Shown here: one piece after another, positions 54,401 to 57,172 of the stretch
Layout: each line of letters opens with the position of its first letter
How positions within the stretch are numbered: the stretch's first letter is position 1
Source: Coleofasciculus sp. FACHB-1120
GTDB taxonomy: Bacteria > Cyanobacteriota > Cyanobacteriia > Cyanobacteriales > FACHB-T130
NCBI RefSeq assembly: GCF_014698845.1
Contig: NZ_JACJTV010000004.1
Span: forward strand, 124,001-188,000
Reading direction: 5' to 3'
Length of the DNA stretch: 64,000 bases
Program-made: the position numbers and the translations under genes
Notes under the pieces: model-generated
Told to the model about the DNA's origin: nothing
The model's database searches: none
What the model saw: the letters and a program-made list of their open reading frames with translations, nothing else

Positions 54401-54521
54401 CTTAGAGCAAAATAATCAAGATAAAGCGGCCAGCCTTTATGTTAAACGTTGTCAGAGATTTCAAAAACGGGGAACCGATGAAAGATGGGATGAAATTGAG
54501 TCTTTCGAGGAAGTATTTTAG
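51468..54521 (+). CDS. Hybrid kinase-like / receiver / class III adenylate cyclase
   Basis: About 1017 residues. Order: short TM (7-27), sensor region (about 30-240), second TM (245-265), HAMP (about 266-330), a histidine-kinase-like HisKA/HATPase (about 335-560), receiver (about 605-720), class III cyclase (about 755-935), C-terminal TPR-like helix. In the H-box the usual His is Gln: FLANTSQELKNPLDG (Gln at about residue 349, codon CAA at 52512). The ATP lid G2 box is altered too (YVGMGIRLAVTK). The receiver is intact (LILLDVMMPKMSG, VDDDP, LTKP). The cyclase has FSDIRNFTSLSE, KYIGDAVMA and DAVNLASRLED. It looks like a cyclase regulated by a receiver that must be phosphorylated by another kinase. 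ATG at 51468 is chosen over GTG at 51462. Confidence 0.9.
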   Translation: MKFPFAVKIGLAISLLSVGVTSTSVYFFYSKTNQIVLNQMSERLKDVGRQGASLLEQDKQETIQRLRQSIEKKSLPSSQKIGTLESGEITASLLPKIAQEAMQSQDYQDLVQVLTKIRSSSRRKVFPVRFLRQAPEVKEKIPLIRSTYLIVSIPESPEYQIVKFLAHANSKNTLDHKEKSIGNLYATDQKELQQAFEGEAQAGRKFYTDEMGTFLKAAIPIKDEADNVIAVLVLEYDGTNEINQIYKLQSICISIIGISLIMSMLVAFLLARWLGSPIEKLLEGAQKVCDRNFDICIDVKSKDELGLLADAFNSMVAEIRDYAQSLESKNKDLLQINQLKDEFLANTSQELKNPLDGIIGIADSLVEGAAGQLSEIQKQNLLMILQSSQRLASMVNDIVDLEKIKHKTLELKLRPVGMQEIADVVLTLAKPFADIKGLRLINRIEPTAPLVHADENRVQQILHNLVSNAIKFTNTGCIEVFSSVSDDYMEITVADTGIGIPISRLNTIFDAFELTEESILRPYVGMGIRLAVTKQLVELHGGKIQVESTLEKGSWFTFTLPMSGNLEILQQTLSQEVSLKEVEIKNFQFERLQDYLQPAPQEGKFKILIVDDDPVNLQILNNYLCLENYTVYQARNGIAALEAIEQGLKPDLILLDVMMPKMSGYEVCKKIRQTFPANELPIVIVTEAHSVANLLETFGSGANDYLTKPISRHELIARIETHLELSKINIAYGRFVPRQFISLLGEESIVNVKLGDQVQKEMTILFSDIRNFTSLSEVMSPKENFNFINSYLSRVSPVIRNNNGFIDKYIGDAVMALFPESAEDALRAAIEMQKQVSQYNMERRRSNLPPIAIGIGIHSGSLMLGTIGDEQRMEGTVISDAVNLASRLEDLTKAYGASIIISEKTLLGLADPTRYNYRFLDKVNIKGRKDLSPIFEVFDGVILESLELKSKTRSSFEWGIHLYYSKKYASAEEIFKKVLEQNNQDKAASLYVKRCQRFQKRGTDERWDEIESFEEVF

Positions 54522-54591
54522 GCAAAACGACAGGAGGGGATGTTTAGAGAGTGGGTTGCCAAGGCAACCTGCATCGCCGATTACCAATTCC

Positions 54592-56421
54592 GTGATTAAA
54601 CGCTTACTTTTAAGCCTTCCAGGTCTCTGTCTGGGAATGGTTTTACCTTCTGTAACGACTTTGATGCCGATTCGAGTTTTGGCTGCTGAAAAAATATTTA
54701 TTTCCTATGGACCGATACAGTTATCCCTTCCGATTTCGGCGCTGGAAGAATATGCCAGGGAAGGCAAAATTAATCAGGATTTAGGGTTTTATGCTCAATT
54801 TTTCAAGCCGGAACAGCTAGAGCAGTTACGGAAGATTTTGCAAACTCGTGCGAATGTTAGTCCGGTGGCAGTGGCTCAATTTCTCTACACGCCGCAGGGG
54901 GAAATTCTGCTGCGGCGTGTCGGCGAAGTTATTCAAACAAAAGCGTTTCAACCGGGTTTTTATGCAATTCGAGCTGCTTTAATTCAAGCTGCTGCCGATC
55001 CCGCAGGGCTGACGCCACTGAATGTACTGCGTAAGTTTCCGACTTACGCAGTTCGGATTAATTCGGATCGGGGCTTTGAGATTATTGATGAGCTGAGCAA
55101 CCTGATCGAGAAAACTCAAGGAGCGATCGCTGCCGTTGAACAGGAAGCTTTGGCTGAAATCTCAGCTCAGTCATCCACTCAGCTGCCCTTTCAGCCATCA
55201 CCAATGGCAACACCGTCTAATATTCCCGCAGGGCGAGATTTACAGCAACCAGGGCCGCTAAGCTGGGAAATGCAGACCCTGACGCTCAATGACCTCAGCC
55301 GCAGCCGGACCTTCCCAGTTGATGTTTATCTGCCTCAGTTGAGCGGACGAGCTGCACCCGTGATTGTAATTTCTCATGGGTTGGGAAGCGATCGCTTGTC
55401 CTATGCCTACCTGGCGAGACACTTAGCTTCTCATGGATTTGCAGTGGCTCTACCAGAGCATCCAGGCAGTAATTCCCAGCAGTTGCAGGCTCTAATTAGC
55501 GGTCTGACAAGCGATGCGGCTCCTCCCAGCGAGGCGGTTGACCGTCCTCTGGATATGAAGTATTTGCTAGATCAACTGGCAGCTACTTATCGAGGACGAC
55601 TAGATATGCAAAACGTCGGCGTCCTTGGTCAATCGTTTGGCGGCTACACAGCGTTGGCGCTGGCGGGTGCAGAAATTAATTTTGAGAACCTGGAAAAAGA
55701 TTGCACTGCTATCAATAGTTCGTTAAATCTGTCGCTGTTGCTCCAGTGTCGGGCGCTGCTGTTGCCGCAAATTGATTATCAATTGGGGGATGACCGAATT
55801 AAGGCAGCGATCGCGATCAATCCAGTTGATAGTAGCATCTTCGGAAAAAGTGAGATGAGTGGTATCAAAGTCCCGATAATGTTATTTTCCAGCAGTAACG
55901 ATACCGCCGCACCCGCTTTATCAGAACAAATTAAACCCTTCACCTGGCTGACAACTCCCAACAAATATCTGGTTTTAATGAAAAAGGCAACGCATTTTTC
56001 CACTTTGGGAGAAGCATTTGAAGGCACTGGTGTAGTTAAAATTCCGCCGCAAGTTGCGGGACCAAATCCCGTGACTGCGTTCGGATATGTGAAAGCATTG
56101 AGTCTAGCTTTTTTTAAAACCTATGTTTCTAACGAGCCAGAATATCAAGGCTACCTGAATGCTTCTTACGCTCAATATATCAGTCGAGATGAGATTCCTT
56201 TAGTTTTAATTGAGTCTTTGACAGAGGAACAATTGCAGGGAATCATCAATACTTCTGCCGCTCAGCCAATCCCATCTCCCACACCCAATACTTTTCGGTT
56301 AACCTCTCCCCCATCCCCTCCCCTGCAAGGAAAGGGGAGGAATTCTCCCCCTTTTCTGCCAGGGGAAGGAGCAGAGGGGTTAGGTCTGCCTTACCCGAAA
56401 AGTATTGCTCCTACACCTTAA
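54592..56421 (+). CDS. DUF1400 alpha/beta hydrolase, extended by a MITE
   Basis: Secreted hydrolase of about 609 residues. GTG at 54592 starts a good signal peptide (IKRLLLSLPGLCLGMVL); the longer frame would overlap the cyclase gene. DUF1400 (about 30-190) is followed by the hydrolase domain with GQSFGG as nucleophile elbow, HGLGSDRLSYAYLARHLASHGF and KKATHFST. The last 45 or so residues (from NTFRLTSPPSP) are encoded by a 122-bp MITE at 56286-56407; without it the protein would end after SPTP. Related secreted hydrolases are often annotated as lipases or dienelactone hydrolases. Confidence 0.85.
   Translation: MIKRLLLSLPGLCLGMVLPSVTTLMPIRVLAAEKIFISYGPIQLSLPISALEEYAREGKINQDLGFYAQFFKPEQLEQLRKILQTRANVSPVAVAQFLYTPQGEILLRRVGEVIQTKAFQPGFYAIRAALIQAAADPAGLTPLNVLRKFPTYAVRINSDRGFEIIDELSNLIEKTQGAIAAVEQEALAEISAQSSTQLPFQPSPMATPSNIPAGRDLQQPGPLSWEMQTLTLNDLSRSRTFPVDVYLPQLSGRAAPVIVISHGLGSDRLSYAYLARHLASHGFAVALPEHPGSNSQQLQALISGLTSDAAPPSEAVDRPLDMKYLLDQLAATYRGRLDMQNVGVLGQSFGGYTALALAGAEINFENLEKDCTAINSSLNLSLLLQCRALLLPQIDYQLGDDRIKAAIAINPVDSSIFGKSEMSGIKVPIMLFSSSNDTAAPALSEQIKPFTWLTTPNKYLVLMKKATHFSTLGEAFEGTGVVKIPPQVAGPNPVTAFGYVKALSLAFFKTYVSNEPEYQGYLNASYAQYISRDEIPLVLIESLTEEQLQGIINTSAAQPIPSPTPNTFRLTSPPSPPLQGKGRNSPPFLPGEGAEGLGLPYPKSIAPTP
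56286..56407. mobile_element. MITE with 13-bp terminal inverted repeats
   Basis: CAATACTTTTCGG (56286-56298) and CCGAAAAGTATTG (56395-56407) are perfect terminal inverted repeats flanking a GC-rich foldback core with an inner stem CCTCCCCT (56317-56324) and AGGGGAGG (56333-56340). The flanks CTCCCACACC (56276-56285) and CTCCTACACC (56408-56417) match at nine of ten positions, which looks like a target duplication. Insertion of 132 bases (element plus duplication) keeps the frame and adds 44 codons. Confidence 0.75.
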
Positions 56422-56428
56422 ATAGAAT

Positions 56429-57172
56429 ATGCAATCGGATGATTTGAAATTAGCTCAACTGAAACAAAAACTAAATGGTGTTAGGCGTTCGGCTTGGAAA
56501 CCTATCGTTCAAGAAGGTGATGGAGATTTAACTGCATCAAAGTTTGCTGGAAAACCTTGGCTGAGTGCCGATGAGACTTGGCCTACTTGTCCTAATTGTC
56601 AAAAGCCAATGCAGTTTTTTCTGCAACTGAATCTTGACAAGTTGCCTGAAAGCTTGAATGGAAAGTTTGGCAGTGGTTTATTACAATTTTTTTATTGTAC
56701 CAATTATGAACCACCTTATTGTCATTGTGAGGTTGATTGTGGTGCATGGGAAGCCTTTGTAAACACTCAGCTTGTAAGAATTATTCAACCAAATACGGCA
56801 CCATTACACGTAGAAATACCTGGAATAGAAGATTTGTTCGATTCTAGATTAATTTTGAACTGGGAAGAAATATATGATTACCCCGATTGGCAAGAATTGG
56901 AAATATATGGAATTAACCTAAATAAGGAAGAAGACGATGTTTTTTTTCAAAATAAATTATATCAATTAGGAGATAAGTTAGCAGGGTGGCCTATATGGGT
57001 ACAAGGTTTGGAATATCCCAATTGTCCTCATTGTAATCAAGCAATGAATCAGTTTGTTTTTCAACTAGAATCAGACGGAAATGTTCCTCATATGTGGGGA
57101 GATGCAGGTATAGGATATCTCATTCAATGCCCCGAACATAAGGAACAACTTGCTTTCTTGTGGCAGTGCTAA
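56429..57172 (+). CDS. DUF1963 (YwqG-like) protein
   Basis: A 247-residue soluble protein with WPTCPNCQKPMQFFLQLNLD, GDKLAGWPIWVQGLEYPNCPHCNQAM and WGDAGIGYLIQCPEHKEQLAFLWQC, matching the DUF1963 pattern. The CxxC pairs may bind zinc. Function unknown. It follows the hydrolase gene closely. Confidence 0.88.
   Translation: MQSDDLKLAQLKQKLNGVRRSAWKPIVQEGDGDLTASKFAGKPWLSADETWPTCPNCQKPMQFFLQLNLDKLPESLNGKFGSGLLQFFYCTNYEPPYCHCEVDCGAWEAFVNTQLVRIIQPNTAPLHVEIPGIEDLFDSRLILNWEEIYDYPDWQELEIYGINLNKEEDDVFFQNKLYQLGDKLAGWPIWVQGLEYPNCPHCNQAMNQFVFQLESDGNVPHMWGDAGIGYLIQCPEHKEQLAFLWQC

Follow-up and report, generated by a model that had tools for sequence, protein, structure and literature searches.

We identified a 122-bp foldback element near the 3' end of a hydrolase gene in a 64,000-nucleotide stretch of the Coleofasciculus sp. 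FACHB-1120 genome (contig NZ_JACJTV010000004.1, positions 124,001 to 188,000 of the forward strand; this whole stretch is hereafter the window, and its own numbering is used below). The element lies on the plus strand at 56286-56407 and is, by its repeat ends, fold, and relatives, a miniature inverted-repeat transposable element (MITE) of an already known kind; elements with its ends are of IS4 type. Its host gene (54439-56421, plus strand) encodes an alpha/beta hydrolase with an N-terminal DUF1400 domain, 660 amino acids long including an element-encoded tail. Very probably, the non-autonomous MITE was inserted near the 3' end of this gene in a common ancestor of the window species and its sister species, with the reading frame kept, the old stop codon reused, and the added tail unconstrained since then.

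The element is bounded by perfect 13-bp terminal inverted repeats, CAATACTTTTCGG at 56286-56298 and its exact reverse complement at 56395-56407, and the positions that an earlier note on this DNA had given for them proved exact on re-examination. The repeat reaches 17 bp with one mismatch, comprising CAATACTTTTCGGTTAA on the left (56286-56302, plus strand, first 13 bp perfect) and a right copy at 56391-56407 that reads CAATACTTTTCGGGTAA on the minus strand. Between them lies a GC-rich palindromic core (approximately 56302-56385) of the ACCTCTCCCC...GGGGTTAGGT type, which elsewhere mostly occurs without IS4 ends. The predicted RNA fold of the element has an energy of -62.5 kcal/mol (z -5.5), equalled by none of 200 shuffles, and inverted 13-mers at most 150 nt apart account for 33 overlapping words in the window, compared with zero in 18 of 20 shuffles and one and three in the remaining two. 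Occurrences of the 13-mer end with up to two mismatches (four in the window) are not clearly above the chance mean of 2.2, while the 17-bp end is enriched genome-wide, with 15 matches versus two for a reversed-pattern control. Other copies in the same genome include one of full length (76% identity, L003), one of near full length (80%, L002), and many that are partial or core-only. The window element is short, carries terminal inverted repeats and a target-site duplication, lacks a transposase gene, and is repeated in its genome, as is characteristic of MITEs, and autonomous elements with matching ends are present in other genomes (L304, from the same order, and L224). The earlier note had called the element a MITE; both its ends and the whole element recur in the genome and the order, and its family can now be named from the IS4-type ends with 10-bp target duplications.

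The two copies of the target-site duplication lie directly outside these ends, CTCCCACACC at 56276-56285 (ancestral CTCCTACACC) and CTCCTACACC at 56408-56417, and are identical at nine of ten positions. Within the genus, comparison was made with one genome, that of the sister species G001, in which the hydrolase is 94% identical and carries the element at the same place, flanked by CTCCTACACC and CACCTACACC. Because the flanks in each species keep one CTCCTACACC, the duplication would originally have been perfect, which fits the view of the earlier note that the single difference marks an aged duplication; the simplest ancestor would have had CTCCTACACC on both sides, with one copy changed in each species. 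Outside the genus, both in the family and across the wider order, hydrolase homologues end without the tail, for example in ...SLTAEQLNMRTNRRQRTENRVSPTPQATP followed by the stop, and those of G002 and G005 end in ...SLTAEQLN...SPTPQATP and a stop. Since the insertion is shared with the sister and is not seen in other genera, it is older than the divergence of the two species and, on the genomes compared, younger than the separation of the genus from the rest of the family.

The open reading frame (ORF) at 54439-56421 continues through the element to a TAA just past the second 10-mer, and its true start may be downstream, given an overlap between the listed start and the ORF before it. Element and duplication together (122 + 10 bp) add 132 bp, or 44 codons. 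As this length is divisible by three and three of the six frames of the element are free of stops, the gene stayed in frame. By comparison, core copies are open in one to four frames and genome-like random sequence of equal length in 0.9. The added C-terminal tail, NTFRLTSPPSPPLQGKGRNSPPFLPGEGAEGLGLPYPKSIAPTP, is predicted to be encoded by 56286-56418 and terminated by the original TAA (56419-56421). Removal of the element and one 10-mer in silico restores an ending of ...AAQPIPSPTP and a stop, in agreement with the arithmetic and the excised ending (SPTP plus stop) of the earlier note. The hydrolase may be secreted, judging from a signal-like N-terminus only.

The origin of the ends is best seen in their relatives elsewhere. 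When 84,980 genomes were searched for exact matches to CAATACTKTTCGGTTAAG, at least 120 stretches were retrieved, from many cyanobacterial loci. Among the matches listed, paired ends mostly enclose 89-160 bp with varied foldback cores, and in 27 of 42 end-paired elements the flanks form a 10-bp duplication that has no more than one mismatch, a feature of about 1 in 2000 random flank pairs. Longer end-paired versions hold, or once held, a transposase gene. One of these (L224; 1474 bp, both ends exact) encodes a 408-amino-acid transposase that matches NF033592 IS4_1 (NCBIfam) at 199.5 bits against a cut-off of 115, as well as PF13006 and PF01609. Its contig is binned as a Tatlockia metagenome-assembled genome (MAG), yet it encodes a cyanobacterial-looking kinase, so that misbinning is likely. 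In G048, of the same order as the window species, a 1488-bp element (L304:1428-2915) has a perfect duplication, CCTTAAGATG, and an open transposase frame whose product is 67% identical to that of L224. A 1.48-kb element in G049 (L305:836-2314; duplication TGATGCCTCT) has stops in its transposase frame, and a 910-bp derivative with an internal deletion is flanked by the duplication CTTCGTGGCT. The same IS4-type ends also surround several unrelated cyanobacterial palindromes (L202, L199, L188, L222, and L185), as would be expected if ends and cores could be swapped like modules. Two loci of an Anaerolineae (Chloroflexota) MAG (L203:4350-4560 and L259:649-805) combine IS4-type ends with a GC-rich foldback core resembling that of the window.

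We hypothesize that, in the shared ancestor of the window species and its sister, an IS4 transposase supplied in trans made a 10-bp staggered cut within the final codons of the gene, and that repair duplicated the target CTCCTACACC. The gene before insertion would have ended in ...CTCCTACACCTTAA, without the element, and afterwards the tail would have evolved as an unconstrained appendage while the hairpin began to decay. Several observations weigh against this history. The duplication is imperfect today in both the window species and the sister, and no true empty allele of the same species was found among the genomes compared, which include one same-genus relative. Moreover, the genomes of the window species, its sister, and G002 yielded no IS4-type transposase of the matching type (a fragment remains in G005), so that the argument for mobilisation draws on other genera. 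None of the 30 DDE_Tnp_1 transposase loci examined, drawn from the window's genome and from three relatives in the family, has matching ends, and the window copy is orphaned, without a partner transposase in its own genome. It would also be possible to suppose that a bare GC-rich palindrome was inserted, of the repetitive extragenic palindrome (REP) or Rickettsia-palindrome type, and that its IS4-like ends are coincidental. Most core copies in the genome do lack these ends, but the 10-bp duplication lies directly outside the IS4 ends and not the core, and the same ends yield 10-bp duplications with many other cores, which makes a bare palindrome highly improbable.

Comparison with the sister also bears on the fate of the tail. 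Over its 44 codons we counted 14 nonsynonymous and two synonymous changes (pN 0.146, pS 0.056), compared with 31 and 55 in the body of the gene (pN 0.022, pS 0.124). Changes at the three codon positions are distributed 5:7:4 in the tail and 21:16:49 in the body; the tail differs from the body (Fisher p 0.0002) and gives a binomial p of 0.26 against neutrality. The nonsynonymous rate of the tail is thus close to the synonymous rate of the body, with no protein-level constraint visible. The best fold of the sister copy is 23 kcal/mol weaker than that of the window copy, at -39.6 kcal/mol, and six of the 15 differences within the element each disrupt a base pair in the window fold, indicating that the hairpin is decaying. 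As neither the peptide nor the hairpin shows signs of being maintained, we regard the tail as a tolerated appendage, apparently drifting neutrally, rather than as a useful one.

Two functional alternatives are addressed by the same comparison. Co-option of the tail, as a functional Pro/Gly-rich extension (e.g. a linker or surface attachment) kept by selection, would be consistent with a frame that is open and a length that is unchanged in both species. However, 3.3% of possible substitutions in the tail create a stop, and the chance of no stop after 16 changes is 0.59; the open frame is therefore no sign of selection. Given also that 14 of the 16 changes alter amino acids, and that the tail is present in no homologue outside the genus, we consider co-option improbable. 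The proposal of the earlier note that the element provides new coding sequence thus stands as regards the open frame through the element and not as regards function, for which the tail bears no sign of selection. Alternatively, the hairpin might act as an RNA or DNA element (stabilising the 3' end, or serving as an attenuator or terminator between the hydrolase and a DUF1963 gene), with incidental coding potential. The very strong predicted fold would suit such a role, as would five terminator-like matches inside the element where 0.4 are expected. Against it, an Rfam search of the element gave no match, the structure is decaying in the sister, and the position is inside an open frame, where ribosomes would unwind the hairpin if it were translated; a role of this kind accordingly has little probability. 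The DUF1963 gene itself (56429-57172) begins 7 bp past the hydrolase stop, and the insertion could affect the coupling of both genes.

Preferring a tolerated IS4-type insertion, we turn to its core, which is also found as a palindrome in its own right. It is repeated in many cyanobacteria; within the order, sequences matching the element are present in 32 of 120 genomes. Copies were scored as in frame where the reading frame through them continued without a stop over 50 or more codons to either side, and controls had one or two bases deleted mid-copy. Among the 88 best-matching core copies, a sample biased by a query that is itself an in-gene copy, 59 are in frame, whereas among the frameshifted controls the count is 9 of 176. 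Of the 17 near-full core copies in the window's genome, seven pass (control 1 of 34), and the same 7 of 17 is obtained for the sister. The window copy is in frame yet too near its stop to pass, and the copy at L005 passes with shorter flanks. A spanning frame was found in none of the 42 IS4-ended pairs recovered by end pattern alone (among the matches listed). Since the element is open in three frames and core copies in one to four, and none of these pairs is in frame, tolerance inside genes seems to come from the composition of the core and not from the IS4 ends.

The peptides TSPPTPPLQGEGS...GKGAGGLG and NLTPQPPSLRGKGE...GEGLGERS recur among unrelated proteins. In both species, core palindromes also stand in frame at the same loop of several nonribosomal peptide synthetase (NRPS) adenylation domains (NPF-[insert]-RLYKTGDLARY), which belong to different modules (L152:3787-3870, L152:13089-13172, L009, and L005 in the window's genome; L147, L148, and L396 in the sister). 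This pattern suggests either a hotspot or spread through the duplication of modules or gene conversion. We tentatively propose, at somewhat less than even likelihood, that the core represents a large cyanobacterial family of coding-compatible palindromes, spreading alone and on IS4 ends and kept largely in frame in protein loops and termini, including the repeated NRPS adenylation-loop insertions. Such a family might be a genome-wide source of protein extensions and a cyanobacterial counterpart of the Rickettsia palindromes.

Rickettsia palindromic elements (RPEs) are palindromes of approximately 100-150 bp that lie in frame in many unrelated protein genes, where they are tolerated (PMC10969869). 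The core copies resemble them as in-frame palindromes across many unrelated genes; the window element differs in its IS4-type ends, identifiable transposase family and duplication, and cyanobacterial host, and the likeness described here is one of pattern. Short palindromes inside ORFs are also known from intragenic REPs of the GTAG/CGTC families (PMC3733652) and from QMITE2 of Coxiella, a MITE containing a REP with direct repeats of 7-11 nt, in a genus where MITEs overlap ORFs (PMC5896051). The window element shares with both its place as a short palindrome within an ORF; the GTAG/CGTC tag and dependence on a RAYT transposase are features that characterise REPs. Nezha and other cyanobacterial MITEs (cited in PMC10969869) are likewise short non-autonomous foldbacks, here compared by description only; the partner insertion-sequence family of the window element is IS4. 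With IS4-family insertion sequences and MITEs the element has in common its ends, its 10-bp duplications, and partner transposase domains NF033592, PF13006, and PF01609, whereas it differs from the insertion sequences in having no transposase gene, no partner in its genome, and a core unrelated to the transposase gene. A largely open-access literature search found no description of the core in cyanobacteria, nor, in open-access literature, of the mosaic pattern in which one core occurs with and without IS4 ends and the same ends occur with many cores.

The hydrolase is a clean, relatively dated case of protein lengthening by a mobile element, in that the target duplication, a likely pre-insertion ending, and the transposase family are all identified. 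It also separates being in frame from being useful. More generally, stop-poor palindromes in frame across many cyanobacterial genes form a natural insertion set that may indicate which protein sites tolerate 25-45 extra residues.

Further copies of the core were observed in other gene contexts. In G002 and G005 (L404/L405), a hydrolase paralogue is closely followed by a core copy, which is intergenic, without recognisable IS4 ends, and was taken as a probable coincidence. At L008:1501-1584 and L375, a gene that by eye resembles those of RsmE-type 16S rRNA methyltransferases carries the core in frame within a variable loop. For this gene, the only orthologous comparison made for core-only copies, the sister has an internal deletion of the core and there is no clear duplication. 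Besides the window element, another copy that has both IS4 ends and this core is in frame in a hydantoinase/oxoprolinase-like gene, identified by eye (L003:1501-1616, L138:848-960, and L140:827-936). Its insertion site is shared by two genera of the family, and the insert measures 116 bp in the window's genome and 113 bp in G002, three bases apart.
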